From contig CM069880.1 of the NCBI GenBank assembly GCA_036172665.1, positions 5,768,501-5,832,500 of the forward strand: a stretch of DNA of 64,000 bases, read 5' to 3'. The notes below the pieces were generated by a model that saw only the letters and a list, made by a program, of their open reading frames with translations, searched no databases and was not told the DNA's origin. Within the stretch, counting starts at the first letter, position 1; each line of letters starts with the position of its first letter. The position numbers and the translations under genes were made by a program. The stretch comes from Prosopocoilus inquinatus (taxonomy: Eukaryota; Arthropoda; Insecta; Coleoptera; Lucanidae). Below, one piece after another: positions 102 through 59,863 of the stretch.

Positions 102-893
102 TTTTTTCTTTAGAACAATTTTACTACTTTCGTGAGCGGATTGTACTTAACTAACCTGTCGTGTAATATTAAACAATAGGCGCAGGTATTTGTGGGTACG
201 TTTTTACTGGTTTCAAATTCTAATCGTATACCTACGGTTCCCGATTTCAATGTTTCGTTTTGTCGGCTACAATCAATCACGACTAACGGTGCTAAATCTT
301 TAAATTTTGAAAAATTAAAACACGGTTCGCCTGCAGTTTTATAATAGTAGGACTGTTAAAATTGGGCGTACATTTCGTACAAAATGGCGAATTGATATTT
401 TTCAAAATTTAAATTTAGATTATCGTATGATAGACGTCTGAATTTAAATACAATTTTATGTTTGTTAAGTTGCAATGATCAAAATAACTGGTGTTTCTTA
501 AGATATCATTTTTTCTACTAGTTTGAAAACCTACGATAATGAAACGCGGCTTTTCTAATTGACTGCTCGCTTTAACGTTCCAGGTGTGTTGTGTCGTCTG
601 TTGTAAGAGAGGTAGTTCGTCCAGTTCTCTTCCTTTGTCGATATATCTAAGTAATTCTAATTTTTCGGCGTCAGACACTTGAACATGAGAAATTTTCCAT
701 AATATTTTTAAACGTTCTATTTTAGAACAGATAAAATAGCGACATCTTACTATCGCTTTTTGACCTGACATTGCAGTAGGGTAGACAAATTGAAGCGGGA
801 TTTGCTCCTAATAAGTTCCCCATGCAAGGCGGCCATGCTTGCTGTCAAGGATAATGAAAATTTTAGAAAAATTTTGTGCAAATCGTTTTTGAT

Positions 894-984
894 TGCAGCG
901 AGAACCTCGAGCAGCCTCTGGACAGCTGTTTCAGCCCTGCTTGGGGCTTCTTCAGCAGAGACGTAGCTCGACATTCCCGCTGCA
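894..984 (-). ncRNA. Hammerhead ribozyme, type I (inverted monomer)
   Basis: On the minus strand this copy has the core CTGAAGA, helix II AGCCC/GGGCT with loop CAAGCA, GAA plus the ACA/TGT three-base-pair helix III, and a cleavable C followed by CAGAG. Helix I is extended by CTG/CAG, TCGAG/CTCGA, GAA/TTC and TGCAGCG/CGCTGCA. All conserved core positions of the hammerhead are present. The predicted cleavage site lies after the base paired to position 921. Confidence 0.8.
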
Positions 985-1269
985 AACAAAAACGACTTGC
1001 ACAATTTATTCGCATTTGCGATGTAAGAGTGATGAACAGATAAAATAGCGACATCTTACTATCGCTTTTTGACCTGACATTGCAGTAGGGTAGACAAATT
1101 GAAGCGGGATTTGCGCCTTGCATGGGGAACTTATTAGGAGCAAATCCCGCTTCAATTTGTCTACCCTACTGCAATGTCAGGTCAAAAAGCGATAGTAAGA
1201 TGTCGCTATTTTATCTGTTCATCACTCTTACATCGCAAATGCGAATAAATTGTGCAAGTCGTTTTTGTT

Positions 1270-1360
1270 TGCAGCGGGAATGTCGAGCTACGTCTCTGCT
1301 GAAGAAGCCCCAAGCAGGGCTGAAACAGCTGTCCAGAGGCTGCTCGAGGTTCTCGCTGCA
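1270..1360 (+). ncRNA. Hammerhead ribozyme, type I
   Basis: The core CTGAAGA lies at 1299-1305, helix II follows at 1306-1321, GAAA at 1322-1325, and the minimal helix III ends in GTC with predicted cleavage after 1333. Helix I pairs TGCAGCG (1270-1276) with CGCTGCA (1354-1360), GAA with TTC, TCGAG with CTCGA and CTG with CAG. Relative to the copies at 17-19 kb, T-A pairs are replaced by C-G pairs on both sides of helix I. Confidence 0.82.
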
Positions 1361-2140
1361 ATCAAAAACGATTTGCACAAAATTTTTCTAAAAGTTCTAT
1401 TTTAGGTCTTTCTCCGTTCTTCGTGGTAATGGTCGCGTTGAGATCTGAAGAACTTCTAATAAGCACTAATTCTTGTCGCACATTAACCAAAATTTTGTTA
1501 TAATCTTCACAGAAACCGAGCAGAATCTTCAACGGAATGCAAACGCTAAAATTTCCTTGCAGATCGGGAATTATAGGATTTTCAAGGTGATTCCAACATG
1601 CGTTGTTATATCTTATGCAATCGTTGTTTGTGAAAGAGACGTACCCCTTCAAAACAGAGGTGATACCTGGATTTTTAGCTCTATCGATGACCGATCCTCC
1701 GAGTTCATATCTGATTTCATCGAACAGGAAAGCAATACCATTGTTGACAAAATTCAACGTGTTGGTCACTTTACTGTCGTAGTCGAGTATTTTTCCTTCG
1801 ATATACAAGTAACTTTGAGCTGGTAAGGTGTAGATGTCCTGCGTTTGAATCGGTAATCGTATTTCGTCAGATTTATTTAACGTAGTATTTGCATATGGAG
1901 GATGACTGTGTATTTCACAATTTATAATAGAATTATCTATTAAAACGTGTTCACCAATGTTAAACACACCGAAACTCATATTTCTTCTTTTTTCTTATAA
2001 TAATTGGAATCCTAGTGATAATAAAAACTGCTTACTTTCAGGTGTTAACTTCTTCGACTGCTTCTTCAAACTGAACCTTTGCCGTGATAATTTTCTTTTT
2101 ATATCTTTATACGGAAATGTATTGTATCGAAACACCATTT

Positions 2141-3859: not shown

Positions 3860-4442
3860 TTAAATCATCATGTTATCATATGAGTCTCGTTTTCTTTTAG
3901 CAGGATTTTCTATATAATCATCGTCGATTGTCGAGGATATTTTTGGTTGTATAACAGGATTTGTTTTAATTTTTTTACCATTAATGTGATCGTTGTCATC
4001 TATTTCTAACTTTCTCTTTTCACCTTTGTTCGGTTTCATTTTTTTACGATAAAATTTTACATTTAAATTCATCCATTTCTAATTTTCTCTTTTCGCCTTT
4101 GAACGGTTTCATGGGATAATCATCTGCAATATCTACACCCCTTTCTAATTTTTTCCTTTCACCTTTGAACGGTTTCGTGGGATAATCATCTGCAATATCT
4201 ACATCCATTTTATGATCTATTCGTTCTTTAACGTTATTATTTTTGAACATATAAAATAGCGACATCTTACTATCGCTTTTTGACCTAACATTGCAGTAGG
4301 ATAGACAAATTGAAGCGGGATTTGCTCCTAATGAGTTATTATTTTTGTTCTTTACGCTACGTTTTTGTTTCTTCGTCGTCGTCGTCGTCTTCGGTCTCCT
4401 CTTCTGATATTTCTTCTGTATAGGTTTGTTTTGTTTTAACAC
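3860..4442 (-). pseudogene. Lysine-rich Polinton protein with KPFKGEKRKLE repeats
   Basis: Two frames (4442-4044 and 4072-3860) carry three to four degenerate repeats of the type DDYPxKPFKGExxKLE plus basic nuclear-localisation-like stretches (KKYQKRRPK, AKRKRD). Low-complexity ACG/GTC triplets encode a run of threonines at about 4375-4395. An 89-bp retrozyme fragment sits inside it (4246-4334). The gene directly follows the PLA2-like gene and may be its C-terminal extension, displaced by a frameshift near 4450. I do not recognise a domain. A DNA-binding or core-protein role is only inferred from charge. Confidence 0.45.
4246..4334 (-). mobile_element. Truncated retrozyme fragment (89 bp)
   Basis: A short copy consisting only of the terminal 89 bases of the family is flanked by the perfect 13-bp direct repeat GTTATTATTTTTG (4233-4245 and 4335-4347). 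It shares the AACATATAAAATAG end with the other insertions and lacks the ribozyme. The shared end and the long target duplication suggest 5' truncation at insertion. The 102-bp net gain (34 codons) leaves the host reading frame open. Confidence 0.85.
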
Positions 4443-4464
4443 TTTTATACAATGTTCGATATTT

Positions 4465-4890
4465 TCAACGGAAGATACTGTAACTTTTTTTGATTTTTCT
4501 AATTTTTTTTAGACACTCGTTAATAATTTTTTTGTAATTTATCTTTCCCAAACCCATTGCCAATTTCACTTTAGCTTTCATCGCTCCTGCAACTCCTAGT
4601 GCAGCTGCTTTCTCGCCGAATGAAGCGTCTTTAGATCGAAATCTGTCCTTGGCAGTCTTATATAATTTTTTATCTGCCACGTGTCTACGCGTTACATCTT
4701 TTTCTTGAGAATACGCTATGTCGTGTTCCCTACACGCCTCATCTAAATCGTTTATACCAACGTCATCGCGTGCCAATCGTTTTTGTTGTTTGGTTCCGGG
4801 TCAGCAGAATCTGTAGGTAGGTATGTGTAATTCGAAGGGTAAATTATTGATGGCTGTATTTAATAATCCGTCTCCTATGTAACACTTCAT
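4465..4890 (-). pseudogene. PLA2-like minor capsid protein (parvovirus/Polinton type), one in-frame stop
   Basis: From ATG 4890 the frame runs for 29 codons to a TGA (4801-4803) and then continues in the same frame to 4465. After the stop, LARDDVGINDLDEACREHD shows the phospholipase A2 active-site signature with the HD pair. The stop falls immediately before the PGT of what should be the calcium-binding loop. An alanine/lysine-rich helix follows. In related Polintons this protein is a minor structural component, and the lipase is thought to help cross membranes. The start is 87 bp from the divergent ATPase gene. Confidence 0.72.
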
Positions 4891-4977
4891 TTTTAATGTG
4901 ATTTATTAAACGACAACTCTCTAACTGAACATAAATTCGAATGTTCAGGCTATTTTAAATGTAAACGCTCCAGCAGT
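4891..4977. promoter_or_regulatory. Divergent intergenic region between PLA2-like and ATPase genes
   Basis: Only 87 bp separate the two divergent start codons, so both promoters must lie here or inside the neighbouring genes. The stretch is AT-rich (TTATTAAA at 4901-4908, TATTTTAAAT near 4951). I see no perfect TATAAA plus initiator pair, so the assignment rests on position. Confidence 0.35.
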
Positions 4978-5661
4978 ATGAAATTAGTTAAACAGAAAAC
5001 AACTTTAAACATTGAGAATAATAATTTTGAAGAAGAACCTTTTAAAAGACACGGTGTACTATTTCCTTCGACCTTGAGGTGTATCATCGTAGGACCCTCG
5101 AATTGTGGGAAAACATACCTTATCGTTAATCTGATTGAGCATCAAAATGGTTTGACATTCGAAGACATTTACGTGTACTCGAAATCTTTAAATCAACCGA
5201 AGTATATTTATTTGGAAGAGCTACTGAAACCGATCAAAGGTATAGGTTATTTTGCATACAGTGCCAGTGAAAACATACTTCCACCTTCGGAGGCGAAACC
5301 TAATTCTATTTTTATTTTCGATGATGTTGCCTGTAACAATCAAGACATAATTCGAGAATATTTTAGTATGGGCAGACATAATTACATCGATTCGTTTTAC
5401 CTGTCTCAAACGTATGCTAAAATATCTAAACATTTAATAAGACACAATGCTAATTCTCTCGTACTTTTCGAACAAGATGATTTAAATTTAAAACACGTTT
5501 ACAACGATCATGTGGGAACGGACATGAACTTTGAGAAATTTAAAGATATCTGTTCTCTCTGTTGGGAAAGCGGTCGGTATGAATTCGTAACCATTTTTAA
5601 AGATAATCGAATTGATGACGGAAGATACAGAAAGGGATTTGATCAGTATATATACCTTTGA
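4978..5661 (+). CDS. Polinton packaging ATPase (FtsK/HerA, A32-like)
   Basis: This 227-residue open frame has Walker A GPSNCGKT at residues 39-46 and Walker B IFIFDD at 111-116, followed by SQTY near 140, the usual sensor-like motif, and the C-terminal GRYRKGFDQYIY. The length is typical of the Polinton A32-like genome-packaging ATPase. It is the only long gene of Polinton 1 without a visible lesion. It leads a plus-strand series (DUF8207 66 bp downstream). A second copy, clearly diverged, lies at 56107-56871. Confidence 0.88.
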   Translation: MKLVKQKTTLNIENNNFEEEPFKRHGVLFPSTLRCIIVGPSNCGKTYLIVNLIEHQNGLTFEDIYVYSKSLNQPKYIYLEELLKPIKGIGYFAYSASENILPPSEAKPNSIFIFDDVACNNQDIIREYFSMGRHNYIDSFYLSQTYAKISKHLIRHNANSLVLFEQDDLNLKHVYNDHVGTDMNFEKFKDICSLCWESGRYEFVTIFKDNRIDDGRYRKGFDQYIYL

Positions 5662-5727
5662 TGAGCAAATACGATAGTTATTAAGGTTCGAAGTATCATA
5701 CGCACCGTTCGTTACCTCCTCATCAAG

Positions 5728-6393
5728 ATGACGACGAACGATATAAATTTGAAACAGAAACTTTTACTAAAACGTAAAAATATACAAAATAAATTAAATT
5801 ATTTAAAACATGGTGAATTAATGCAGGAAAAGATGTTCGATCCCATCACTAAAGATTTAAAAAACATTGAAAGTAAATTACAACTGAAAAGTGAAAATTT
5901 ACGAGAAGAGGAATTACCTAACGTTGACGTAAAACCTTCGACATCACAAAAACATGATTTCATAACTCCTAAACAAAAATATTCCTCTGTAAAGAAACGT
6001 TTGATAAGTAACTTTGAAGCGGCAAATAAGGCAGACGAATCGGACAAATTTAAAGAGTCGATTTTAGAAAGTATTGAATCAGACGAAGAAGACGAGGAAG
6101 GTACGCGATTTAAGGACATCGATGAGAAAGCATACGTCGATTATTTGGAACAGTATTATCCGTTACCTAGAAAATACATCAACGAAATGTACACGGACGA
6201 TGAAAATAAAGAATTCGATCGCAAATATGGAGTGAGACTTGATAGAATTACGGAAAACCTAAAAATCGGTGATTCGTCCTTAATTTTCGACGGAGCTGAT
6301 ATTATTAATAAAAATAGAAGGTACAAAGGTACCCCAGGTTTCTACGAGTTACTATTTAAAAAATTTCCTGATAATTATACTAAACTAACTTAA
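5728..6393 (+). pseudogene. DUF8207-type Polinton protein, C-terminally truncated
   Basis: A 221-residue frame starts MTTNDINLKQKLLLKRK with a coiled-coil-like N-terminus, then an acidic serine-rich middle (ESIESDEEDEEG) and the conserved FDRKYGVRLDR and YKGTPGFYELLFKKFP blocks. I know this family as DUF8207; its function is unknown to me, but it always accompanies Polinton genes. The intact partner at 56888-58110 goes on for about 90 more residues (SRGFKY block). Here the protein ends after PDNYTKLT and integrase sequence begins within 10 bases, so one deletion removed its tail and the integrase core together. Confidence 0.75.
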
Positions 6394-8782: not shown

Positions 8783-9171
8783 ATCACTTGCGCACATCGC
8801 AACAGAGAAAAGTTATGAGCTTCAATAACAAATTAGGTGAAATTGTGAACAAAATTGAAACTGTTAGTAAGTTAGTTAGAACAAAAAAAAGATTTTGTGA
8901 AGTGGTTAAAGTTCATTAGGAAAACTATTTTTTTAACTAAGAAATATTTGAAACTTTTTAAACAACGGCTAAGAAAAAAAAGAAATCAAAAAAGAAAAGC
9001 TTTGGTATGGTAAACGTAATATTTTTAGCTAATTTTATCAAGCCTCAAAACGGTGAAACTAACATAAAACATTTTACAATTAAAAATCAGATAATAGATC
9101 ACTCAACAAATTTAAAGGAATGGTACGAAGCGAACGTTAAAAATAAAATCTTATCAAAATTGGAAGAATTT

Positions 9172-10893
9172 ATCAAAAGAATTTATCAATAGAACCAAAT
9201 ATTGAAAGGAATCCAACATCCCTCTATTTACATCCAACGGACACCACAGAAATTATTAAAACTATGAAAAAAACCTGGAAAAAAAGATCGTCAGGAATAG
9301 ACGAACTACCGGGAACAGTGCTACTACGCGTGCATAAAGACCTCGCAAAACCCCTGGTAACCATCATTAATAAGAGCTTCGTAGAAGGAACATATCCAGA
9401 CCAGCTGAAAACGTCAAAAATCACACCAGTGTTAAAAAAAGGAAAAATAACAGAAGTAAAAAACTACAGACCCGTAGCCTTGCAAAGTCAAATAGCAAAA
9501 ATATTTGAAAGCTGTTTTAACTCTCGATTAAATTCCTTCCTGGAAAAAAACGATCTGTTAACTCACACACAAAACGGATTCAGACAAAATCGATCAACAC
9601 AAACAGCCTTGGAGGATGCCATTGACTTCATACACGAAAACCTCAACGACAAAAAACAACCCCTCGGTTTATTCTTTGACATGAGCCGCGCCTTTGACAC
9701 CATAGACCACCATCTACTTACCGAGAAGTTAGAACAAATGGGTGTAAGAGGAACCGCCGGAAGCTGGATCAAGACGTACCTCGCAGATAGTGTACAAATA
9801 GTTGAAATCAACGGCAATAGATCGTCAGACCAAATTATTAGAAAAGGAGTGCCACAAGGTTCGTGCATATCCCCCACATTATTCAACTGCTTCATTAACG
9901 ATCTTCCGCAAACAATCACCGAAAACGGAAAAGCAGTACTGTACGTGGACGACTTTAACGTGATAATCGACGGAAATTTACAAAATCGAATCGCCGAAGC
10001 AAGAAGTTGTATTTATGGAGTGATACAATGGTGTAAGCGAAACGGAATTGTGCTCAACGCCGAAAAATCAACGGTGGTAGATTTCTGCATAAAAAACAAA
10101 ACAGTTGACTTATCGGTACTACTGAAAATCGAAAATAAATCGATAGAGTGCGTAGAAACGACAAAATTTCTCGGTGTATATTTGGACCAAAAACTGACAT
10201 GGAATTCTCACATCGAGCACATTCTACCAAAAATTAGCACCGCGTGCTATATGATTCGCAATATCCAACCCACAGTATCGACACATGTCCTAAAACTTAT
10301 GTACTTTGGACTAGTACAGTCAGTAATGAGTTATGGACTGATATTCTGGGGTGCGGCAAGTGGAAGACACAAAGTGTTCGCAATGCAAAAGAAAGTCATA
10401 AGACTAATGATGGGAGTACCACTACAAACATCGTGTAGGGAATTGTTCAAAGCTTTAGAAATATTACCTTTTCCTGCTTTGTATGTGTATTCTCTGATTA
10501 TATTCACGAGAAAAAAATCCAGACAACCAAAAAGGTCAGATTTACATCAGTACAATACAAGAACAAACAACGAAATACAAGTTCCATTTTCAAGACTTAC
10601 GGCAGGCCAACAGAACCCCAATTACATCGGACCAAAACTCTACAACAAACTGGTGACGTTGGATCGCGAATTTCAAAAATGTAGTATAAACACTTTCAAA
10701 ACAAAGCTTAAGACCTTGCTGTTAAAAAATTGCATTTACTCTGTAAATGAATTTTACGACTTAAAAATTAATAGTTAATTTACATTTATATATGCATATA
10801 TACACTGACGAGTCCGATTATATTATATTTGTGTTTTTGTACTGTATAATATGGACAATAAAGCATCAATCACAAAGCATCAATCAATCACTC
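9172..10893 (+). mobile_element. 5'-truncated LINE (non-LTR retrotransposon) inside polymerase B
   Basis: The polymerase codons for LEEF and QERDSG are separated by 1722 bp flanked by a short AATTT duplication (9167-9171 and 10894-10898). The insert contains a reverse transcriptase gene and ends in AAGCATCAATCACAAAGCAT-type short repeats (10861-10893) rather than a long poly(A). The endonuclease domain is missing, as is usual for 5'-truncated copies. It inserted in the same orientation as the polymerase. Confidence 0.8.
9264..10778 (+). CDS. LINE reverse transcriptase, intact RT region
   Basis: This 504-residue open frame has PVLKKGKITEVKNYRPVAL (about residues 55-73), GFRQNRST, motif A FFDMSRAFDTID (137-148), KGVPQGS (194-200), and catalytic YVDD (227-230), followed by a thumb region and a C-terminal domain with LMYFGLVQSVMSYGL. 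It belongs to the Jockey/CR1 side of non-LTR elements; I cannot place the clade. The frame is free of stops over 1.5 kb, much less decayed than the surrounding polymerase, so it inserted late. Confidence 0.85.
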   Translation: MKKTWKKRSSGIDELPGTVLLRVHKDLAKPLVTIINKSFVEGTYPDQLKTSKITPVLKKGKITEVKNYRPVALQSQIAKIFESCFNSRLNSFLEKNDLLTHTQNGFRQNRSTQTALEDAIDFIHENLNDKKQPLGLFFDMSRAFDTIDHHLLTEKLEQMGVRGTAGSWIKTYLADSVQIVEINGNRSSDQIIRKGVPQGSCISPTLFNCFINDLPQTITENGKAVLYVDDFNVIIDGNLQNRIAEARSCIYGVIQWCKRNGIVLNAEKSTVVDFCIKNKTVDLSVLLKIENKSIECVETTKFLGVYLDQKLTWNSHIEHILPKISTACYMIRNIQPTVSTHVLKLMYFGLVQSVMSYGLIFWGAASGRHKVFAMQKKVIRLMMGVPLQTSCRELFKALEILPFPALYVYSLIIFTRKKSRQPKRSDLHQYNTRTNNEIQVPFSRLTAGQQNPNYIGPKLYNKLVTLDREFQKCSINTFKTKLKTLLLKNCIYSVNEFYDLKINS

Positions 10894-13800
10894 AATTTCA
10901 AGAACGTGACAGCGGGTGGGCGTTATATGAAATACTACAACTAAAAGTTAACATTAATAATTTTGCACCCATTAATGGAGGTATTTCGACATACGTTCAA
11001 ATGCCTAAATTTATTCAAAATAAGAAGTGCGTTTTAAATTTGTAAAATAATGATGAATATTGTTTTCTTTGGTCGATCGTGGCAGCCTTACATCCTGCTC
11101 CCGCACATAAAAAATCTGAACGCATTTCATCTTATCCTCATTTTTCAAACGTTTTAAAATTTGAAGGCATTAATTTTCCTATTAGTTTAAAAGAGGTTAA
11201 GAAATTTGAATTAATGAACGAGCCTTCAACTAATGTATTTACAATAGAAAAAACAGACGTATTACCAATTTCTTTAAGCTAGTTTGAATTCACAGAACGA
11301 ATTAATTTATTAATGATACCTTGTGAAGAAAATGATGAAAACAATGCAAATTCAAAAACAGGATTTCATTTTGCATTAATAAAAAATTTATCTGGTTTAC
11401 TTCACAGACAAATCGGTAGTTTACATAATAAGAATTGGTTTTGTGAACGTTGTCTCAATCATTTTATATCACAAGAAAATTTAGAAAAGCACGTAATTAC
11501 ATGCAAAGACGTTAACAAAACTAAAAGTACTGTACCGCTCGAAAAAGAAAAATATCTAACGTTTAAAAATTTCAAAAACAAAGAGAAAGTTCCGTTTGTT
11601 ATTTATGCGGACGAATGTATACTGAGAAAATTTAACGATTTAAAACCTTCTAATAAAAATAGAAAGTATCAAAAACATGAACCATTTTCTATAGCATATT
11701 TTCTAGTGTGTTCATATAATCCTTCACTTTCAAAATTTAGATTACATACCGGAAAAGATTGCGTAAGTTGGTTTGTCAGCGAATTGGAAAAAATAGGTTT
11801 AGAAATTAATGATATTTTCTCAACAGTGGTGCCATGTAAAAAATTAACGGTAGAACAAGAGTACGAATTTCAAAATGCTACACATTGTCATGTCTGCTTA
11901 AAGCCATTCGATAATCTTAAAGATATTAAAGTACGCGACTATTCGCATCTAACTGGAGAATTTCGTGGAAGTTGTCATCAAGCATGCAATCTAAATTATA
12001 AAAACACTAATGCGATACCAGTAGTTTTTCACAATACGTCAGGTTACGATAGTCATTTTTTAATAAAAGCGTTAGCTACACAAATACCAGGACAAATTAG
12101 TTTATTACCGATTAATAAAGAAAAATACATTTCATTTTCTAAATATATTTCAAATACTAATATTAATTTTAGGTTTTTGGATTCATTTCGATTCATGCCC
12201 AGTAGTTTAGACAAACTTTCATCATATTTAGATAGAGATCAAAAACTTATTACCAAATCACATTGTAAAAATGATACGGAACTTAAATTGCTCGAGAGGA
12301 AAGGTATTTTTCCGTACGAATATCTTGACAATTGGGAGAAATTACAGGATACCAAATTGTCTTCTAAAAGTGATTTTTATAATAAAATTAATCAATCTCA
12401 CATTTCGGACGATAAATACGAACATGCCTTGAACGTATGGAATACGTTCAATATTCAAAATTTACAAGAATATGCAGAGCTGTATTTAAAAACGAATGTC
12501 TTGCTGTTAACGGACATCTTTGAAAATTTTAGAACATGTTTACAAACTTATCAGTTAGATGCCCTGCATTATTATACCGCACCCGGTTTAGCTTTCGACA
12601 GCATCCGAAGACAACTTCCATTACCTTAGAATTATTAACAGACATAGATATGTTAATGTTTATCGAAAAAGGTATCAGAGGTGGAGTTTCTCAATGTTCA
12701 AATCGTTACGGTAAAGCGAACAACAAGTATATGAACGATTTTAACATTGATGAACCGTCGTCATATTTAATGTATTACGACGTTAACAACTTATACGGCA
12801 CAGTTATGTGCTTACCTTTACCTTTCGCACAGTTCGAGTGAGTTGATCCTTATTCGATAGATATTATGAACGTGTCGGACGATGCTGAATTTGGTTACAT
12901 TCTAGAATGCGACCTACACTATCCGGAACAAGTATTTGAAGAACATAAAGATTTACCGCTTTGTCCTGAACGCTTAGTACCACCGTGTTCATCATCAAAA
13001 ATCCCCAAATTATTAACCACTTTATTTGATAAAAAACAATGTATTATTCATTACAGAAATTTAAAACAAGCAATTTCAATTAGGTTTGAAAATTGAACGA
13101 GTATTAAGAGTATTAAAATTTAAACAGTCTAATTGGATGGAATTGTACATAAATTTAAATAATGATTTACGTAAAAGAAGTAAAAATTATTTTGAGAAAA
13201 ATTTCTACAAATTAATGAACAATTCAGTGTTTGGTAAAACTATGGAAAACGTTCGGAAATATAAAGACGTAAAACTGGTTACTAAATGGGAAGGACGTTA
13301 CGGTGCAAAATATTACATATCGAAACCAAATTTTCATAGTTGTACCATTTTCGAAGACGACATGGTCATCATCGAAATGAAACGATTAGACATTAAATTT
13401 AATAAACCTATATACGTAAGCTTCACTATACTAGATCTTTCCAAAACGTTTCTGTACGATTTCCATTACAATTACATCAAAACGAAATTTAAGGACAGCG
13501 CTAAATTACTCTATACCGACACCGACTCTTTAATTTATCACTTTTTCGTGGACGACATTTATGATCACATTAAGGAAGACATTTCAAAATTCGATACATC
13601 TGATTATTCACCAACTAACAGATATCAAATACCTCTCCGGAATAAAAAAGTTTTAGGATTAATGAAAGACGAAAACAACGGGATATTAATGTTGGAATTT
13701 ATAGGACTCAGATCAAAAATGTACGCAATAAAAATTTCAAATAATAATGTCATTAAAAAAGCAAAAGGTGTGAAAAATTCAGCACTTCGTTCGATTTCGT

Positions 13801-14104
13801 TCGAAGACTATTATCAAGCTCTGTTCAATAATTCTACTCAGGAGACGACACAATTCCTGATCAGATCACAAAAATATGAGGTTTTTACGATCGAGCAAAG
13901 AAAATTAGCCCTAAGCCCATTCGATGACAAAAGAATCATTAATTTCATTTACACTGATACATTTCCCTGGGGTTACAAAAAGATCAAAAAATGAACAATT
14001 TTTTTTGTCAGAAAATTAACTTATAAACAGTTTCAATTATTTCACTATTGCAGAAAGATTTTACTCGTAAGTTTTTCATTTATTTTTTTTATTTGTATAT
14101 TTAA

Positions 14105-15480: not shown

Positions 15481-15653
15481 CTAGTATTACTACTCATCCT
15501 GTTTTTGCTGTTTTCTTTTATTTTCTAAATACAAGAACTAAAACGATTTATATACAACCTGCTTATTGAAGACAGAACATCATCGACCGCCTCTTACTAA
15601 CCTAAGTTAGGTACAAGCAATATTTCTTATACAAAAAAAGTATAAAATTATTA

Positions 15654-15919
15654 GAAAAATTTTGTGCAAATCGTTTTTGATTGCAGTGAGAACCTCGAGC
15701 AGCCTCTGGACAGCTGTTTCAGCCCTGCTTGGGGCTTCTTCAGCAGAAACGTAGCTCGACATTCCCACTGCAGACCAAAAACGACTTGCCCAATTTATTC
15801 GCAAATGCATGGCCGCCTTGCATGGGGGACTCATTAGGAGCAAATCCCGCTTCAATTTGTCTATCCTACTGCAATATTAGGTCAAAAAGCGATAGTAAGA
15901 TGTCGCTATTTTATATGTT
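15654..15919. mobile_element. Retrozyme insertion, one inverted plus one forward half-monomer
   Basis: The 266-bp insert is flanked by the 13-bp duplication TATAAAATTATTA (15641-15653 and 15920-15932). It begins GAAAAATTTTGTGC with an inverted ribozyme-bearing segment, switches orientation near 15808 at CGCAAATGC/ATGGCCGCC, and ends in forward orientation at TATATGTT. The switch point is nearly the same as in the array at 18.40 kb, which suggests both descend from a template that already carried the inversion. Confidence 0.85.
15682..15772 (-). ncRNA. Hammerhead ribozyme, type I
   Basis: The complement of the plus strand carries the full set: TGCAGTG...CACTGCA outer helix I, TCGAG/CTCGA, CTG/CAG, CTGAAGA core, AGCCC/GGGCT helix II, GAAA, ACA/TGT helix III and the cleavable C. 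It belongs to the same sequence lineage as the array at 17.9-19.8 kb. Confidence 0.8.
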
Positions 15920-15932
15920 TATAAAATTATTA

Positions 15933-17245: not shown

Positions 17246-17739
17246 AACAGTGGAAATTTAGCGTATTTTAAAATACATGACAAGAAACTATTTTCTGTAA
17301 GATGTGTAGGATATATAAAAATGTATTTTTAACTTTCATTTAGAAAAATAAATAAATAAAGAAGTAATTTATCTACAGCAAAAAGTCATATCATTTTTCT
17401 CCTGCCCTGTCCTATCTCTAGCAATATTGACTGACAGTTACATTTTTTTCTAAAATATAACACTAATAACAAGCAACAGTCCTTATCCAAAAAAGTACCT
17501 ACAGAATTATTATTTAAAAATTGCAAGCGAACCATGTTTTACTTTTTTCTTTCCAAATTGAAAGATTTATTAGCATCATTTGCTCAGCGAATTTTAAATA
17601 ATTGATATTTATGTTTTATTCAGTTGTAGAAAAATAAACTAAATTTACTCTAACAACGTTTTGGCTGTTTCATAAAAATAAATGACACATTTCATAGAGC
17701 TGCTGCAAAATACACAAGATTTACTAAGTTCTTTGAAGA

Positions 17740-17880: not shown

Positions 17881-17967
17881 AAGTCAATCAAGTTAACGAA
17901 AATCGACTATTTTTAGAGAATTTAAATTATAAAGTGTTAGAAAAATTTTGTGCAAATCGTTCTTGAT

Positions 17968-18059
17968 TGCAGTGAGAACCTCGAGCAGCCTCTGGACAGC
18001 TGTTTCAGCCCTGCTTGGGGCTTCTTCAGCAGAAACGTAGCTCGACATTCCCACTGCAG
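17968..18059 (-). ncRNA. Hammerhead ribozyme (first inverted monomer)
   Basis: Minus-strand copy with every core element intact: CTGAAGA, AGCCC/GGGCT, GAAA, minimal helix III, cleavable GTC and an extended helix I closed by TGCAGTG/CACTGCA. Confidence 0.8.
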
Positions 18060-18278
18060 ACCAAAAACGACTTGCCCAATTTATTCGCAAATGCGATGTA
18101 AGAATGATGAACATATAAAATAGTGACATCTTACTATCGCTTTTGACCTAACATTGCAGTAGGATAGACAAATTGAAGCGGGATTTGCTCCTAATGAGTC
18201 CCCCATGCAAGGCGGCCATGCTTGCTGTCAAAGCATATTGAAAGATTTTAGAAAAATTTTGTGCAAATCGTTCTTGAT

Positions 18279-18370
18279 TGCAGTGAGAACCTCGAGCAGC
18301 CTCTGGACAGCTGTTTCAGCCCTGCTTGGGGCTTCTTCAGCAGAAACGTAGCTCGACATTCCCACTGCAG
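18279..18370 (-). ncRNA. Hammerhead ribozyme (second inverted monomer)
   Basis: Minus-strand copy identical in the core to the first inverted monomer. It lies 311 bp from it, immediately before the orientation switch at about 18400. Confidence 0.8.
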
Positions 18371-18565
18371 ACCAAAAACGACTTGCCCAATTTATTCGCA
18401 AGTATGGCCGCCTTGCATGGGGGACTCATTAGGAGCAAATCCCGCTTCAATTTGTCTATCCTACTGCAATGTTAGGTCAAAAAGCGATAGTAAGATGTCG
18501 CTATTTTATATGTTCATCATTCTTACATCGCATTTGCGAATAAATTGGGCAAGTCGTTTTTGGTC

Positions 18566-18656
18566 TGCAGTGGGAATGTCGAGCTACGTTTCTGCTGAAG
18601 AAGCCCCAAGCAGGGCTGAAACAGCTGTCTAGAGGCTGCTCGAGGTTCTCACTGCA
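18566..18656 (+). ncRNA. Hammerhead ribozyme (forward monomer 1)
   Basis: Core intact. The base after the cleavage site is T instead of C (GTCTAGAGG), which would form a G-U pair at the first step of helix I, so activity may be lowered but the fold is kept. Confidence 0.75.
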
Positions 18657-18877
18657 ATCAAAAACGATTTGCACAAAATGTTTCTAAAATCTTTCATTAT
18701 GCTTTGACAGCAAGCATGGCCGCCTTGCATGGGGGACTCATTAGGAGCAAATCCCGCTTCAATTTGTCTATCCTACTGCAATGTTAGGTCAAAAAACGAT
18801 ATTAAGATGTCGCTATTTTATATGTTCATCATTCTTACATCGCAATTGCGAATAAATTGGGCAAGTCGTTTTTGGTC

Positions 18878-18968
18878 TGCAGTGGGAATGTTGAGCTACG
18901 TTTCTGCTGAAGAAGCCCCAAGCAGGGCTGAAACAGCTGTCCAGAAGCTGCTCGAGGTTCTCACTGCA
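18878..18968 (+). ncRNA. Hammerhead ribozyme (forward monomer 2)
   Basis: Core intact. TCGAG has become TTGAG in helix I (G-U pair with CTCGA), and CAGAGG is CAGAAG. Both changes are in the outer helix, not in the catalytic core. Confidence 0.75.
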
Positions 18969-19189
18969 ATCAAAAACGATTTGCACAAAATTTTTCTAAA
19001 ATCTTTCATTATGCTTTGACAGCAAGCATGGCCGCCTTGCATGGGGGACTCATTAGGAGCAAATCCCGCTTCAATTTGTCTATCCTACTGCAATGTTAGG
19101 TCAAAAAGCGATAGTAAGATGTCGCTATTTTATATGTTCATCATTCTTACATCGCATTTGCGAATAAATTGGGCAAGTCGTTTTTGGTC

Positions 19190-19280
19190 TGCAGTGGGAA
19201 TGTCGAGCTACGTTTCTGCTGAAGAAGCCCCAAGCAGGGCTGAAACAGCTGTCCAGAGGCTGCTCGAGGTTCTCACTGCA
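19190..19280 (+). ncRNA. Hammerhead ribozyme (forward monomer 3, cleanest copy)
   Basis: CTGAAGA at 19219-19225 (all fixed core positions), helix II AGCCC (19226-19230) with GGGCT (19237-19241) and a 6-base loop, GAAA at 19242-19245, helix III ACA/TGT (19245-19247 and 19250-19252) with a 2-base loop, cleavable C at 19253. Helix I: CTG (19216-19218) with CAG (19254-19256), then an internal loop, TCGAG with CTCGA, GAA with TTC, TGCAGTG with CACTGCA. Pairing continues imperfectly outwards (CGTTTTTG with CAAGAACG), giving a rod. Short helix III variants of this kind are known in Penelope-like elements and animal retrozymes. Confidence 0.85.
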
Positions 19281-19501
19281 ATCAAGAACGATTTGCACAA
19301 AATTTTTCTAAAATCTTTCATTATGCTTTGACAGCAAGCATGGCCGCCTTGCATGGGGGACTCATTAGGAGCAAATCCCGCTTCAATTTGTCTATCCTAC
19401 TGCAATGTTAGGTCAAAAATCGATAGTAAGATATCGCTATTTTATATGTTCATCATTCTTACATCGGATTTGCGAATAAATTGGGCAAGTCGTTTTTGGT
19501 C

Positions 19502-19592
19502 TGCAGTGGGAATGTCGAGCTACGTTTCTGCTGAAGAAGCCCCAAGCAGAGCTGAAACAGCTGTCCAGAGGCTGCTCGAGGTTCTCACTGCA
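19502..19592 (+). ncRNA. Hammerhead ribozyme (forward monomer 4, weakened)
   Basis: The core bases are kept but helix II carries GAGCT instead of GGGCT, giving one mismatch in a 5-bp stem. Activity is likely reduced in this unit. Confidence 0.65.
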
Positions 19593-19879
19593 AACAAGAA
19601 CGATTTGCACAAAATTTTTCTAAAATCTTTCATTATGCTTTGACAGCAAGCATGGCCGCCTTGCATGGGGGACTCATTAGGAGCAAATCCCGCTTCAAAT
19701 TTGTCTATCCTACTGCAATGTTAGGTCAAAAAGCGATAGTAAGATGTCGCTATTTTATATGTTTATAAAGTGTTAATATAAAGTAAAAGAAGGAAGAGAT
19801 TTTTAGAAACTGTACATGGAAAGAGTTGTACCGTAGCATCATACTTTCATACTTACACGTTAGCCAGTCATCATTTATT

Positions 19880-22698: not shown

Positions 22699-23870
22699 AA
22701 AACGCATATGAAATTTGGTAAACGGTATCATTGTTTTTCGAAGTATTCGCCTTTGACGTCAATACAGTTTATATGGACAATGGGTCACTAATTCAACATT
22801 TTTGTTGGACAAAACATCAACTGACGGGCTGAATGAGATCTGGCGTTGTCATGATGGAGAATAATTCGTCGATTTCGATTGTTTCTTCTTATTTGATCGC
22901 TGACTTCCGGCAAACAAATTGTAGTATACCAATCAGCATTCACGGTTTTTCGATCCTCTAAAGCCATGGTTGCTACATGTCCAGTTAAACCAAATAAACA
23001 AGCAATCATTTGCTTCGCAGCACTGCGTGAACAGACAACTTTTGTTGCTTTTGGTTCATTTTGAAATACCCAAACGGTAGATTGTTGTTTACTTTCTGGC
23101 TCGTACGAATAGATCCACGTTTCGTCACCAGTAACGATGTTATAAACTAAATTTGAACGACCTCCATTGAATTTCTTGAGCATTTCTCCGCACCATTTGA
23201 CACGACCCTGCTTTTGCGCTTCTGTTAAATTGTGTGGGATCCAACGACTGCAAAGCTTTCGTACGTTCAAATGATCATGCAAAATCTGGTGTGTTGCTTT
23301 CATGTCAATGCGTAAGGATGCTTGAATCTCACGGTATATCACATGTTGATCTCGCTCAAGCATTTCACGCACAACATCTACATTAGTGGCAACAACAGAT
23401 GTTGATGGACGACCTTCATGAAATTCGTCACTGAGAGAGGTACGTCCACGCTGGAATTCGGCAAGCCAATTATAAACACTGCTCTTTGATGGTGCTTCAT
23501 CTCATTCAAATGAAGCCGTTCGAGGTATTGTTTCGGCGTTAGACCACATTTGAAATCGTAAAAAATCATGGCACGAAAATTTTCACGCGAGATTTCCATG
23601 TTTAAATGCTGTACAAACAAAACTAGGTCACTTGGATAGGAACTGTCAATAGAATTATAGGCGAAAAATGTCAAATTTTTCAAATATGACAGTTGGTAAA
23701 CGCTAACAATTCTAGACCTACTAGATTCCAGAAAATTTTCCAGCAGCCCACGTATGTTCGAACAAAGTATAAGAACGCATTTTTTATTAAAGGCATTTGC
23801 GATATAATATGAGGGAGCTGCGTTTCTGTAATTATTGTAAGTGAAGTTCAACTTTGCGATGGATTTACTG
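22685..23870 (-). mobile_element. Mariner-family DNA transposon, defective
   Basis: Transposase pieces are read on the minus strand. N-terminal helix-turn-helix sequence lies in 23600-23378 (SRENFRAMIFYDFKCGLTPK). 23372-22788 includes GDETWIYSYEPESKQQS (first Asp) and HHDNARSHSARQ (second Asp). The frame is broken at about 23375 and 23500. Downstream, sequence jumps from the region of the expected third Asp straight to the final KGEYFEK-like tail near 22745, so the third catalytic residue is deleted. It sits within the DIQGF gene. Confidence 0.8.
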
Positions 23871-44404: not shown

Positions 44405-46965
44405 CCATCTAACTTTAATAACCGAAATGAACACAATTGATACTCTTTCAAATCAAATTCAGTTCTAAAATCTAAAAATACTACCCAGTAAACACTAAAC
44501 ATCACGGGGACATCGCAAAATGTATTTCAGTCACATTTGGGATGTTTTTCTTCAATGTCTATGCGACTTTAATTTTATATCATAAAAATTATGTGACATC
44601 AATTACACAGAGATGTAATGTCCCTGTTACTAAAAGGTACACGTGTTTGTAACATTGTGGCAACGTTGCGTACACTTTCAAAGTGACATATGTTCGTGTA
44701 TTTTCGTTGTTGGTTCGAAGGAACAATAGGTCTGTCTGTTATCCTACACTAGTGTACACCAAAGTATTTGTGCCTTGTTCTAACCTCATACATTAACACG
44801 AGATGAAGATATGTTGAGGGGCACTAGTACAGGATAACAAACAGATCTAATAAGGCATGTTATATCGCGCTTGTACATTGTTACTGCGTTTATTCTTTCG
44901 CTATCCTAGTGCGTTTTTTAAGTGAAAAATTTATGCAGTATTGTATTGTGCAATCTTAAAAATTGCGTATTTGGTATTTAGTAGGTACAGTGTTTCGCGA
45001 AACTAACGAATAAATTCTAGAAAATGGTTAAGAAAAATGTTTCGTAAAAATACTCAGGCAGGTCGATTTTTATTTTTAAATTATCATTTGAAGATGTAAT
45101 TTTGAACCCACCCCTCATACCCTACCCACTAAGCAAAAAAATGTTTTGTAAACATTTTGTGAACGTTATTTAGTCATACGTAATGTTTCCGGTTAAACGT
45201 GTTTAGTGTAGAAAGTAACGTTATGCCGATAGTTCTATGTCCTAGTAAGCGATGTTACATAATAACGTTATAATAAAAATGTTGATTCGACGTTTCTTTA
45301 TTAACGCTGTATAAACATAAATTGCAATGTTTTATTAATATTTAAACGTAATATTATCATTATGTTTCCTATACTTGTTTCATGAACGTTCCTTTAGGAA
45401 TGTGTCATTGACGTTCCTTTAGAAACATTGCACTACTATTACAGGATAACACACTGTATTTCACTTCTCATCTACACACATCTGTACTTTTTTTTAATTT
45501 ATTAACGGATCGATTTTAAAATTTCGCCTTGTTTAATCATGAAAAGTTATTTAAAAAAATTGTTTAAAACTAAGAAATAACCCCAATTCCCAAATTTCTT
45601 TATAACTTTTCGTGATTAAACAAAGTCTAATATGTTAATTTTTTGCAATTTGTTTTTGACTGCGGCTTTATAATCAGAAAATTTTGATTTTAAAAGGACG
45701 CACAATTGACAAAAATTTAGAATCGATCTGTAAATAAATTAAAAAAGTCAGGGATTTGTAGCTGAGAAGTGAAACACAGTGGATATCTTTAAAGCAAACC
45801 GCACATTAGCATCGCATCATTTTACAAACTAAAAATCTGCAGCAATCACTACCTAACATATTTTTTGTATGTTACTTCATTCTGTATTTATTGGTGCAAA
45901 TTTTTAGTTTAGCAATATGAAGCAATGCAACACATGCTAACGTCCACTTCAATAAAGCTGCTTTAACACTTGTAAACTTAAAATGTTTAATTACTTCGCG
46001 ATCCCTCTGCTGAGGAGCCCCCAAACAGGACCGAAACAGCTCAACAAAGGGTGCCATTGTAATAAACTGTATTCATAATAAGTAGTTACAAAGGAGATCT
46101 TTCTTATTTTGTGAGACAGAGATAGATTTAATAAATTCCAAATGCAAAGATGAAGTATATCCAGTATTAATGTATCTACATAGATTATATTTTCTAATTC
46201 TAACACAGAAGGAATCTTACTATGCAATGTGTTTATTAATACAATTAATGAAGTATTTACAATCAAAATAATATATTGAAACACCAGATATAAAAATACA
46301 AGCCGTGGAGATCATAATAATTATTAAATCTAATCCGCTTATTAAATACTGAACGAGCGAAATAGGGGTACTTGCAGGCGGGTGATAATAGAACGTAATC
46401 AGCTGTGTCTATTTGGTCCAAAACTTCTATATAATCGCTGTTAATCATACATTTGTTTCAAAAAATTGTATGCCTTCACCATTATTTTCTCGTGCTAAAA
46501 ATTTTGTTCTCGGTGAGGTTACAAAATTCTGTAAATATAAATGAAGAAAATGATATATAAATACATTATAATGTCAAAACAATTAAAAAAATCGTATTAC
46601 TTACCCTTCATCAGTTTTTCAACAATTTTTCCTTATTAACATATAAACATTTTAGATGATGTGACTGAAAATCTGAAATGTATCTCTTTTAAAAATAGGT
46701 AAAATAAATAAAACATTTTACCTCTATATTTTTCACGTGTGTTCTTTGCATTCTGTATTCTAACTTTAAAATGTAGCATCACTTTCGAGGATTTATCGCA
46801 AAGAGATAGTGCATCCTAACTGCAGCGGTTTTTTCCCTTTTCCTAAAGCAATGTCACTTTTTAATTAGGAGTAATTTTTAAGTGTGTTCTTCTTATAACG
46901 AGCCTTCAATAAAAAAAACCACCTCCAGTAGCCTTAGAAACAAAAGTACATACCGTAGATTGAAC
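44405..46965. other. AT-rich DNA with small palindromes; no gene seen
   Basis: A palindrome at 44731-44848 (CTGTTATCC...GGATAAC) is related in its centre to the MITE at 27521. At 45121 the phrase TACCCACTAAGCA begins a repeat whose inverse ends at 49499. A stretch at 46010-46060 resembles a diverged hammerhead core (CTGAGGA, then CGAAACAGC). Confidence 0.4.
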
Positions 46966-55852: not shown

Positions 55853-56106
55853 CATTGTTATAAAATCATATTATTTATTAATTTATTTTAATTTTTATAG
55901 TTTCTAATTTTAGTTTTTAAAGTTTAGTATCTTATTCTTTATAGTTTTCTTTACTTTTATTTATTATATATAAAAACATTTTATTCGAGTATCTTGTTTT
56001 TATAACGTAACAAAAAGGAAGTGGTTTAAACAATAGTTGATATTACACTTCCAGCACAGCAATAGAAACATAATATATCGCGTTGAGTAATTGAAGTGAT
56101 TGAAAT

Positions 56107-56871
56107 ATGAAGTTTCAAGAACAGTTTTTAAAGTTACCCGTACAAAATTTCGATGATGCAATCGCAAACGAAATCTTTAAACGTCATAATGAACTATTCG
56201 GAGGATCAAGTAAACGCGTTATCATTAGCGGGAGCTCAGGAGCTGGCAAAAGTAATTCATTAGTGACATTATTAACCCATCCGAACGGACTACGTTTCAA
56301 AAATTTATACATCTGCTGTAAGACCTTATCTCAAGGGAAGTATGAATTTCTCAGACATTTGCTATCAACAGTGCCCGAAATAGGTTACTTTGAAATTTCC
56401 GATATGGAAAAAATGGTATCACCTACAAATGTAAAAGAATATTCAGTCGTTGTTTTTGATGACGTTCAGTGCACTACACAAAATTTAATTAAAGAGTATT
56501 TCTCCTTTGGACGTCATAGAAATGTTGACTGCTTTTATTTAAGTCAAACTTACAGTGCAATACCCAAACAAATGATTCGTGATAATTGTAATTTCTTAGT
56601 ACTATTTCGTCAAGATTTCACAAATTTGAAACACGTTTACGATGATTACGTCAGCGGAGATATGACTATGGACCAGTTTCGTAATATCTGTTACGCTTGT
56701 TGGAAGGAACCGTTTGGTTTCTTAGTTATTGATACCGATTGTTCCATAAACGCAGGGAGATATCGTAAAGGATTCGACACGTACATATATATCTTTAAAA
56801 CCACTACATTTTACATAGTTCTTTCATTTTTACATAGTTCTACAGTTCTTCAGTACTGTAAAAGACGTTAA
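56107..56871 (+). CDS. Polinton packaging ATPase (A32-like), Polinton 2
   Basis: A 254-residue frame with Walker A SGSSGAGKS (residues 41-49), Walker B VVVFDD (114-119), SQTY (147-150) and the C-terminal GRYRKGFDTYIY. After that the frame runs on for 25 residues of hydrophobic and serine-rich sequence (TTTFYIVLSFLHSS) not seen in the first copy, probably read-through past a mutated or absent stop. It leads the plus-strand module; DUF8207 starts 17 bp after. Around 45% identical by eye to the copy at 4978. Confidence 0.88.
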   Translation: MKFQEQFLKLPVQNFDDAIANEIFKRHNELFGGSSKRVIISGSSGAGKSNSLVTLLTHPNGLRFKNLYICCKTLSQGKYEFLRHLLSTVPEIGYFEISDMEKMVSPTNVKEYSVVVFDDVQCTTQNLIKEYFSFGRHRNVDCFYLSQTYSAIPKQMIRDNCNFLVLFRQDFTNLKHVYDDYVSGDMTMDQFRNICYACWKEPFGFLVIDTDCSINAGRYRKGFDTYIYIFKTTTFYIVLSFLHSSTVLQYCKRR

Positions 56872-56887
56872 AGGATGCGGATGCGCC

Positions 56888-58110: not shown

Positions 58111-58178
58111 ATTGTAGTATTTAGTGGAGTGCAAGCGAGCACACATTTCAGTTTCACATAGTTGTTGATTGATTCACA

Positions 58179-59492: not shown

Positions 59493-59524
59493 TAAATATT
59501 TATTAACTACAACTGTAAACATAC

Positions 59525-59780: not shown

Positions 59781-59863
59781 ATACAATACTCACAATACAC
59801 AATAAATGAATTTTACAAATTAATTTATTTACTTTCTAACAGAACTTATAAATAAAACATACT

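Follow-up and report, generated by a model that had tools for sequence, protein, structure and literature searches.

The 64,000-nt stretch of the Prosopocoilus inquinatus genome analyzed here (the window) contains a tandem array of a 312-bp repeat, which a first-pass annotation took for a probable insect retrozyme encoding type I hammerhead ribozymes. The locus raises the question of what this repeat is and which machinery moved it. Penelope-like elements (PLEs) have been named a strong candidate mobilizer of metazoan retrozymes, with no evidence at the level of single insertions in the passages drawn on here (PMC7229834), and a 2020 review describes metazoan retrozyme repeats as being without a conserved motif that would betray an autonomous mobilizer (PMC7761336). 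We analyzed the window together with related insertions and a PLE family of the same genome.

Materials and methods

Positions on the element RNA were counted from the hammerhead cleavage site, and two recurrent start sites were designated S1 (~+55) and S2 (~+197). The hammerhead descriptor required CUGANGA, helix II of at least 4 bp, GAAA, helix III of at least 2 bp, UH and helix I of at least 5 bp. A target duplication was called clear at a score of at least 11, which arises by chance in 7 of 1000 cases. Before counting we excluded L057 (layout as L056), L042 (place as L017), L018-L024, L027, L029, L030 and L037 (one array, read as L066), and three clusters that reach the end of their locus (two in L028 and one in L056). 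The stretch neighboring L065 and others without a clear duplication were counted among all clusters only. A set of 124 matches includes some that are partial or span a junction. For the PLE, six stretches were chosen because their two matches lay close together, which biases this sample; L094 and L096 were excluded for overlapping L093 and L095, and L068, L069, L071, L072 and L077 fell outside the L086 family.

Insertions in the window

The reported 312-bp array proved to be real. Its first ~460 bp, though, are inverted, so that the array consists of a minus arm and a plus arm meeting head to head with a 4-nt overlap (18398-18401). Three further insertions had been overlooked (A, C and D in Table 1). 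The window thus holds four insertions of the family, each lying between different target duplications of 12-13 bp; at least 12 nt were shared between random 31-mers in only 0.02% of 20,000 draws. A paralogue of the site occupied by insertion C was found in its empty state. The right end of insertion A is given as a range since its value depends on how the duplication is drawn, and insertion D is without a hammerhead because it covers RNA positions 107-197 only. The retrozyme has a GC content below 50% (0.436 and 0.440). One reading frame stays open for 103 codons per monomer, consistent with the caution that such frames could be mistaken for proteins of about 96 residues.

Table 1. Features of the 312-nt family in the window (window coordinates)
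Feature	Coordinates	Strand	Remarks
Left target duplication of A, GTTCTATTTTAG	714-725	+	right copy 1394-1405
Insertion A (second subfamily), double arm	726-1393	.	left end S2-type (197), right end S1-type (55-60)
Hammerhead core in A	921-955	-	
Hammerhead core in A	1299-1333	+	
Left target duplication of D, GTTATTATTTTTG	4233-4245	+	right copy 4335-4347
Insertion D, single 5'-truncated arm	4246-4334	-	ends at S2 (197)
Left target duplication of C, TATAAAATTATTA	15641-15653	+	right copy 15920-15932
Insertion C, double arm	15654-15919	.	ends at RNA positions 55 and 197
Hammerhead core in C	15709-15743	-	
Natural empty-site paralogue of C	17469-17547	+	left flank, one copy of the target motif, straight into right flank
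Left target duplication of B, TTATAAAGTGTTA	17927-17939	+	
Insertion B (reported array)	17940-19762	.	head-to-head double arm, 1823 bp = 5.8 monomer lengths
Minus arm of B	17940-18401	-	outer end at RNA position 55 (S1)
Hammerhead core in B	17995-18029	-	cleavage predicted after last base
Hammerhead core in B	18306-18340	-	
Plus arm of B	18398-19762	+	outer end at RNA position 196 (S2)
Hammerhead core in B	18595-18629	+	
Hammerhead core in B	18907-18941	+	
Hammerhead core in B	19219-19253	+	cleavage predicted after C19253
Hammerhead core in B, C-A mismatch in helix II	19531-19565	+	fails strict descriptor
Right target duplication of B	19763-19775	+	

The hammerhead motif

All the hammerhead strings quoted in the first-pass annotation (CTGAAGA, a 5-bp helix II with a 6-nt loop, GAAA, GTC and a long interrupted helix I) are present in the 312-nt family, and its predicted cleavage site in the fifth core of insertion B was rightly placed. 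Its helix III, drawn as 3 bp closed by a 2-nt loop, was wrong; a hairpin of that kind is sterically impossible in RNA. Instead, GAAACAGCUGUC can form 2 bp with an AGCU tetraloop. Alternatively, two copies can pair with each other over 8 bp, as ACAGCUGU is a palindrome. An internal loop UAC/U and a loop CAAGCA are present as candidates for a tertiary contact between helices I and II. The nucleotide preceding the predicted cleavage site is C in 102 and A in 8 of the 110 copies with GGGCTGAAACAGCTGT preserved.

The strict descriptor matched eight of the nine window copies and nothing else in the 64-kb window, the ninth failing by its helix II mismatch, and two sets of 120 Markov random strands of 64 kb, one with the composition of the window and one with that of the element, gave no match. 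A scan of the whole window with Rfam 15 returned nothing at gathering score, and no copy of the family reached a hammerhead cut-off, the best sub-threshold match being HH9 with 18.7 bits against a cut-off of 52. This was the covariance check proposed with the first-pass annotation, for which sub-threshold scores in all copies were to count as refutation. Formally that is the outcome, but in view of the descriptor matches and the covariation we judge this condition too stringent for the present family; nor is reaching an Rfam cut-off among the defining features of metazoan retrozymes in the literature consulted. Matches to MIR5048 and MIR169_2, likewise under their own cut-offs, we attribute to the inverted arms being taken for hairpins. 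A looser hammerhead pattern gave 14 matches in IMG/VR, none of which folded with both helix I and helix II, while two family patterns, one run against genome_contigs and one against IMG/VR, found no match.

In an alignment of 66 distinct copies, which had been fitted to the structure, 97.0% of the cells at hammerhead pairs were paired. Both sides had changed in 20 cells, as compared to 7.0 +/- 1.9 in shuffles (0 of 500 reached 20), and helix II carried a C-G to U-A change in four rows. Two weaker measures on the same copies gave 5 pairs with a change on both sides against 2.8 in shuffles (reached by 14 of 500) and 31 further pair types against 29.6 (reached by 68 of 500). The covariation score of the nine window copies alone was reached by 79 of 500 shuffles and is not decisive. 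From these data we confirmed that the family carries a type I hammerhead motif, for which self-cleavage is predicted. Its conserved core is complete, as expected of a metazoan non-LTR retrozyme.

Folding placed the motif in a highly self-paired RNA, with circular-fold z-scores of -8.0 and -8.8 for the two subfamilies (100 shuffles each). Substitutions between the subfamilies break 2 pairs of the circular fold against 5.4 expected by chance (P 0.027, junction columns removed), and a compensatory double change between them is expected in 5.5% of random placements. For a single unit, the hammerhead fold (-43.8) lay 6 kcal/mol above an inactive alternative (-49.8). When the hammerhead region was folded as two strands, the minimum free energy was -103.5, versus -99.6 for two separate inactive folds; this modeled structure, the program's own optimum, we read as a double hammerhead.

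Insertion ends across the genome

We scored the best 40 of at least 385 genomic candidates, a sample that is hence biased, and clear target duplications flanked 26 of the 44 retrozyme clusters examined (window and its genome). Twenty-four of these 26 insertions have two outward 3' ends, one at 53-65 (S1) and the other at 193-199 (S2). The rule holds in all 21 simple double arms and in three multi-arm insertions (L031, L043 and L045), and the remaining two (L032 and D) are single arms ending at S2. An insertion found through the PLE search rather than by the retrozyme query (L068) likewise has, as read by eye, one S2 and one S1 end and a 14-bp duplication. At weaker duplications (score 8-10), two of five further simple double arms were without S1 at the second end (L054 and L062), and other ends occurred in several clusters without a clear duplication (L017, L048, L053, L066 and others). 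The duplications measured 11-16 bp in 24 of the 26 clear cases, and their A+T content of 84%, as compared to 64% in the loci, indicates an A/T-rich target. No flanking LTR was seen in the arm maps.

The arms meet head to head, often with 2-5 nt of microhomology. Arm lengths lie between tens of bases and 3.2 kb, and the junction varies in position. More than one turn of the monomer was covered by 54 of 99 arms and the cleavage junction was crossed by 82 of 99, while only 2 of 86 inner ends lay within 5 nt of that junction. Arms of the same insertion agreed at 444 of 472 family-polymorphic sites (36 insertions; L031, L043 and L047, which are nested or complex, were left out), whereas arms re-paired 2000 times agreed at 63.6% on average and 75.1% at most. 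Both arms thus carry the same alleles and therefore copy one RNA. The S1 and S2 start positions shift by several nt with a target match of 0-5 nt (mean ~1.9), suggesting that the target helps to choose the start base.

The octamer TCTTWCAT occurs exactly twice per monomer (61 and 204), 6-7 nt behind each start. We treat it as a lead only: it was noticed by inspection, it varies among copies at 61-62, and no looser form of it was found near the PLE sites of L086.

The resident Penelope-like element

The genome of P. inquinatus is rich in a GIY-YIG PLE with both RVT_1 and GIY-YIG domains. Fifteen of 31 PLE clusters had a clear duplication; many of the other 16 run off the 3.2-kb locus. All 15 consist of head-to-head arms that terminate, in L086 coordinates, at 2005-2010 on one side and at 2045-2047 on the other; the end in L067 was 2018 raw and 2005 once the duplication was removed, and the query stopped at 2047, the full query placing those ends at 2046-2048 in most arms. 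Both PLE ends in L078 are of one type, but this locus is without a target duplication and its sequence is identical beyond both ends. Two internal start sites, one per end, were therefore used in 24 of 24 two-ended retrozyme insertions and 15 of 15 PLE insertions with clear duplications.

Just upstream of both start sites the resident PLE carries a CUGAAGA hammerhead motif whose helix III is palindromic (AUACGUAU); no hammerhead was evident when this region was folded alone or as two strands. The PLE thus shares with the retrozyme two start sites, head-to-head arms and a hammerhead motif. It differs in that the retrozyme is without reverse transcriptase or endonuclease, has the longer hammerhead helix I and starts at 55/197 rather than ~+47/+86, a spacing of about 142 instead of about 38 nt. 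No clear motif common to the start sites of the two elements was found. They are weakly similar 3' of the cleavage site (P 0.004-0.0075, base shuffling); for a second PLE family (L072), comparison with the retrozyme downstream of the hammerhead revealed none (P 0.74). A connection with PLEs had figured in the first-pass annotation as background only and now has insertion-level support. The label of an insect element is plausible, since the named matches listed for a resident reverse transcriptase are mostly from beetles and moths; a mussel is also among them, and the best matches (55% identity) lie outside this named set.

Proposed mechanism and alternative explanations

The insertion anatomy of the retrozyme matches that of the resident PLE and so points to the PLE enzyme as its mover. 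We consider it likely that the element is a metazoan non-LTR retrozyme parasitizing the resident PLE, whose enzyme would mobilize it by target-primed reverse transcription, with a separate internal start site for each of the two target strands. Hammerheads would cut tandem transcripts, and folding energies suggest that adjacent units probably cooperate as a double hammerhead, the palindromic helix III pairing best between two copies. The 312-nt monomers would then be closed into highly self-paired circles. The PLE reverse transcriptase/GIY-YIG endonuclease, probably as a dimer, would cut both strands of A/T-rich DNA ~12-13 bp apart, and each cut 3' end would prime one cDNA at a fixed position within a shared RNA template, S1 serving one strand and S2 the other. 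The enzyme may read round its template once or several times, in keeping with the observed ends, asymmetry and multi-turn arms. The two cDNAs would finally meet head to head, joined often at microhomology, to leave a mirror-image double array with two outward 3' ends.

The template could instead be a long uncleaved tandem transcript, with the hammerhead unneeded for transposition. We regard this as unlikely, while giving it real weight. Long tandem loci exist (L066, 4,054 nt), hammerhead mutants of a lizard PLE still insert in vitro (PMC11167929), one site of insertion B (33) is split 4:2, and the 16 deep insertions together hold 32 intermediate-frequency columns, 27 of them in L028, L043 and L047. 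However, monomers are nearly uniform within most deep insertions, L066 having no such column in 312. The ribozyme core and its pairs are kept, and circular forms of retrozyme RNA accumulate in coral, mussel and axolotl (PMC7229834).

The mover could also be a LINE of the same genome acting by ordinary twin priming, which we find improbable. The window does hold an open frame with RVT_1 (9147-10778), which we take to be jockey-like, and twin priming by LINEs gives 5' inversions and duplications of 7-20 bp. In that process the first cDNA starts from the 3' end or poly(A) of the RNA and the second from a variable place. In the present family the two starts are both fixed and internal, the four window insertions show no poly(A), and the resident PLE follows the same two-site rule.

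It is very improbable that the family is a plain satellite with a chance hammerhead-like string, which the silence of Rfam at its cut-offs would allow, given that individual insertions carry different target duplications and end at fixed termini, that base pairs covary and that random sequence gave no descriptor matches. The inverted, duplication-flanked arms might recall the terminal inverted repeats of a small DNA transposon or foldback element, yet the two ends lie at different RNA positions and are not mutual inverted repeats, and arm length and junction position vary, so that we give this reading practically no credence.

Relation to known elements

The identification as a retrozyme is supported by the features shared with metazoan non-LTR retrozymes as described in PMC7229834: a type I hammerhead, a monomer of a few hundred nt (312 nt falls within their range of ~170-400 nt), GC below 50% (here 44%), no LTR, target duplications longer than 4 bp and a highly self-paired RNA. 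Those elements are described as short tandem repeats, and the word 'inverted' is absent from the main text of that paper, whereas 24 of the 26 insertions with clear duplications are head to head here, with two different fixed ends. We found no report of a head-to-head retrozyme in the open-access literature searched. The satellite retrozymes of newt and axolotl (HHR_Amex1/2, PMC7229834) are alike in having a tetraloop-closed helix III of 1-2 bp, which is palindromic in Amex1, and they cleave better as dimers; set side by side by description, they differ from the present family in that its helix II is a regular 5-bp stem. Plant LTR retrozymes are likewise non-autonomous, with circular RNA processed by hammerheads, but they have a type III hammerhead, LTRs, 4-bp duplications and a proposed Gypsy machinery (PMC7229834, PMC7761336, PMC11722881).

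With PLEs the retrozyme shares an internal start of reverse transcription, two start sites that give a tail, inverted head-to-head arms, an A/T-rich target and, in the lizard element PAc, a minimal type I hammerhead (PMC11167929, PMC3846280). An inverted pLTR is typical of PLE inserts, and the Adineta vaga study describes head to head as the most frequent inverted arrangement (PMC3846280). The purified PAc enzyme, a predicted dimer, starts internally, cuts and extends both strands and prefers AT-rich DNA (PMC11167929).

Biological significance

The element is more than a tandem repeat: it is a non-coding mobile element spread as mirror-image double copies. We lean towards a broader rule for Penelope-type retrotransposition, 'one RNA, two doors', by which a two-subunit enzyme would make one cDNA per strand, starting from two internal, non-equivalent sites on one RNA molecule, and the retrozyme would be a minimal portable kit, a self-made 312-nt circle with a hammerhead and both start signals. 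PLE biology is sharpened as well, since insertions with clear duplications use one of each site, unlike the lizard enzyme in vitro, whose start sites did not differ between strands (PMC11167929). Both partners occur in one genome and share their insertion anatomy, which makes the question of the mobilizer testable with one protein and one RNA. The mechanism offers a route by which a 312-nt RNA may seed satellite-like and inverted arrays. If it is true, mirror-image arrays and satellite growth would follow directly from multi-turn copying of a circle, and retrozymes would be to PLEs what SINEs are to LINEs.

Retrozyme insertions in the window

We identified four insertions of the retrozyme, the 312-nt hammerhead-bearing repeat. 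Their direct repeats all differ from one another, and a repeat of this length between random flanks is expected in about 2 of 10,000 cases. Insertion A sits where a PF21738-matching frame ends and so seems to interrupt a double jelly-roll gene. Open frames resembling parts of several Maverick/Polinton-type elements were also present; Pfam backs the integrase and the A32-like ATPase, and the remaining frames, including PolB, we take to be such on our own reading.

Table. Features in the window
Feature	Position	Description	Flanks or scores
Insertion A	726-1393	Minus arm left, plus arm right	Own 12-13 bp direct repeats
Insertion B (array)	17940-19762	Minus arm left, plus arm right	Own 12-13 bp direct repeats
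Insertion C	15654-15919	Minus arm left, plus arm right	Own 12-13 bp direct repeats
Insertion D	4246-4334	Single truncated arm	Own 12-13 bp direct repeats
Empty relative of C target	17469-17547	Left flank, single duplicated motif, right flank	
Frame ending at A	1362-1994 (-)	Matches first part of double jelly-roll domain PF21738	
Frame containing D	4044-4508 (-)	154 aa; lengthened in frame by D and its duplication, 102 bp (34 codons)	
Hammerhead-like stretch	45998-46054	Decayed, distant; CTGAGGA and CAAACA loop	20.6 bits, E 0.0046 (family model)
Maverick/Polinton-like frames	4897-6393, 11283-13994, 56104-62526		
Mariner-type transposase remnant	22788-23498 (-)		PF01359 below its cut-off

The hammerhead

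The insertion B array is made up of 312-nt units, and the full unit reads CTGAAGA AGCCC CAAGCA GGGCT GAAA CAGCTG TC, enclosed by a long interrupted helix I. The first-pass annotation was right about a 312-bp family with CTGAAGA, a 5-bp helix II, GAAA and an interrupted helix I, while the helix III that it drew (3 bp with a 2-base loop) is sterically impossible. Eight of the nine hammerhead cores in the window, and no other window sequence, passed a strict descriptor that had no matches in 240 random 64-kb strands; the core at 19531 differs from the unit sequence by one base. The Rfam scan proposed in that annotation gave nothing at gathering scores in the window, the best match being Hammerhead_HH9 with 18.7 bits against a cut-off of 52. 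The decayed hammerhead-like stretch at 45998-46054 is perhaps a second retrozyme family.

The palindrome ACAGCUGU alone forms 2 bp with an AGCU loop, and between two units it forms 8 bp. By nearest-neighbour energies the single-unit active fold lies 6 kcal/mol above the inactive fold, and the best two-strand structure, read as a double hammerhead, gave -103.5 versus -99.6. The passages of PMC7229834 on newt and axolotl hammerheads describe a weak helix III and better cleavage by dimers. The retrozyme hammerhead is likely active, probably as a dimer.

Two fixed ends in retrozyme copies

We mapped the best 40 of 385 candidates from the 650-Mb P. inquinatus genome, including B (L015), together with A, C and D. 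Two copies, L056 (C13) and L057 (C11), have almost identical layouts with equal offsets on two contigs and are a duplicated or haplotypic segment; L057 was left out as a duplicate and 44 clusters were counted. The outward ends of the arms fall at two places on the RNA, ~55 (S1) and ~197 (S2) from the predicted cleavage site. A target duplication score of at least 11 was found in 26 of the 44 clusters, compared to 7 in 1000 by chance. All 21 simple double arms among these paired S1 with S2 (ranges 53-60 and 193-199), as did all three multi-arm clusters (197/58, 65/196 and 53/197), and the remaining two were single arms ending at S2. If ends picked the sites independently and equally, 24 mixed pairs out of 24 would arise about once in 17 million. 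At a score of at least 8, S1/S2 was seen in 24 of 26 simple double arms, the second end of L054 and L062 being ambiguous. Clusters without clear duplication show other end pairs too (for example, L053 53/64, L048 200/100, L066 200/81). L068, an insertion beside a Penelope-type copy, likewise combines an S2 with an S1 end, and its duplication measures 14 bp, as read by eye.

The start base matches the target over 0-5 nt (mean ~1.9 at S1 and at S2). TCTTWCAT occurs exactly twice in the unit, at 61-68 and 204-211, 6-7 nt behind each reverse transcription start site, and is a possible enzyme-binding signal. Five insertions (L031, L043, L045, L047, L052) have 3-6 arms each, mostly alternating, which suggests template switching or nested insertions.

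The template

Alleles were equal between the two arms at 444 of 472 family-variable sites in 36 insertions; when arms were re-paired across insertions, agreement averaged 63.6% and reached at most 75.1% in 2000 trials. More than one turn was covered by 54 of 99 arms (longest, 3.2 kb), and joints between opposite arms overlapped by 2-5 nt in 25 of 47. A circular template is probable, and is consistent with L066, the largest array (4,054 nt), because over 312 positions it has 4 fixed, 8 singleton and 0 intermediate-frequency differences. A multimer transcribed from a uniform locus is the less likely template: insertion B has one split site, and some intermediate-frequency columns occur in 7 of 16 deep insertions. 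A cleaved linear monomer is ruled out, since 82 of 99 arms run through the cleavage site, with no excess of inner ends close to it (2 of 86 no more than 5 nt away).

Selection on the RNA

Since the alignment was fitted to the tested structure, pair counts are biased in its favour: among 124 matches, of which 66 were distinct, pairing held in 97.0% of cells, 20 cells were altered on both sides versus 7.0 in shuffles (reached by 0 of 500), and 5 pairs were so altered versus 2.8 (reached by 14 of 500). In the 110 copies retaining GGGCTGAAACAGCTGT, the base preceding the cut was C in 102, A in 8 and G in none. The circular fold is much more stable than shuffles in both subfamilies. S1 and S2 fall within or next to a weakly paired central loop of the predicted fold, with unpaired probabilities of 0.49-0.84 (positions 53-60) and 0.27-0.99 (193-199) against a mean of 0.34.

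A resident Penelope-like element and retrozyme mobility

A GIY-YIG search of the genome gave 2232 candidates, of which 150 were scored, often as minus-then-plus pairs. The reference copy, L086, combines a reverse transcriptase with a GIY-YIG domain, which marks it as a Penelope-like element (PLE). We sampled the 30 best-scoring stretches and six picked for closely spaced match pairs, so the sample is not random; in it, 15 of 31 clusters had a duplication score of at least 11, and in all 15 the two arms ended at different L086 positions, one within 2005-2010 and one within 2045-2047 (L067, raw end 2018, gives 2005 after subtracting its duplication). L086 carries at 1927 a CUGAAGA hammerhead motif and the palindromic AUACGUAU, which places the end sites, as counted, ~47 and ~86 nt beyond the predicted cleavage point. 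On the 3' side of the hammerhead, PLE and retrozyme share weak sequence similarity (P 0.004-0.0075). Another PLE copy, L078, has two same-type ends with equal sequence beyond each and no target duplication; it may have arisen by inverted duplication instead of insertion.

The portion of PMC11167929 on the purified lizard PLE describes an internal start at two adjacent sites, cutting and extension of both strands, a preference for A/T-rich DNA and a hammerhead dispensable for insertion in vitro. There, start sites did not differ between strands, whereas P. inquinatus retrozyme and PLE insertions with clear duplications use one site per end. Rotifer PLE inserts, in the relevant part of PMC3846280, have an inverted pLTR, an optional tail and 8-10 bp duplications. 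In P. inquinatus, the ~38 nt between the two PLE end sites are the counterpart of the tail described for PLEs.

The family is very likely a retrozyme, for which an insect origin is plausible. A review says that the repeats hold no motif pointing to a mobiliser (PMC7761336); the authors of PMC7229834 favour PLEs on shared hammerheads, tandem copies and co-occurrence. We consider it likely that PLE machinery moves the retrozyme, and the insertion anatomy in P. inquinatus is evidence on which element moves retrozymes.
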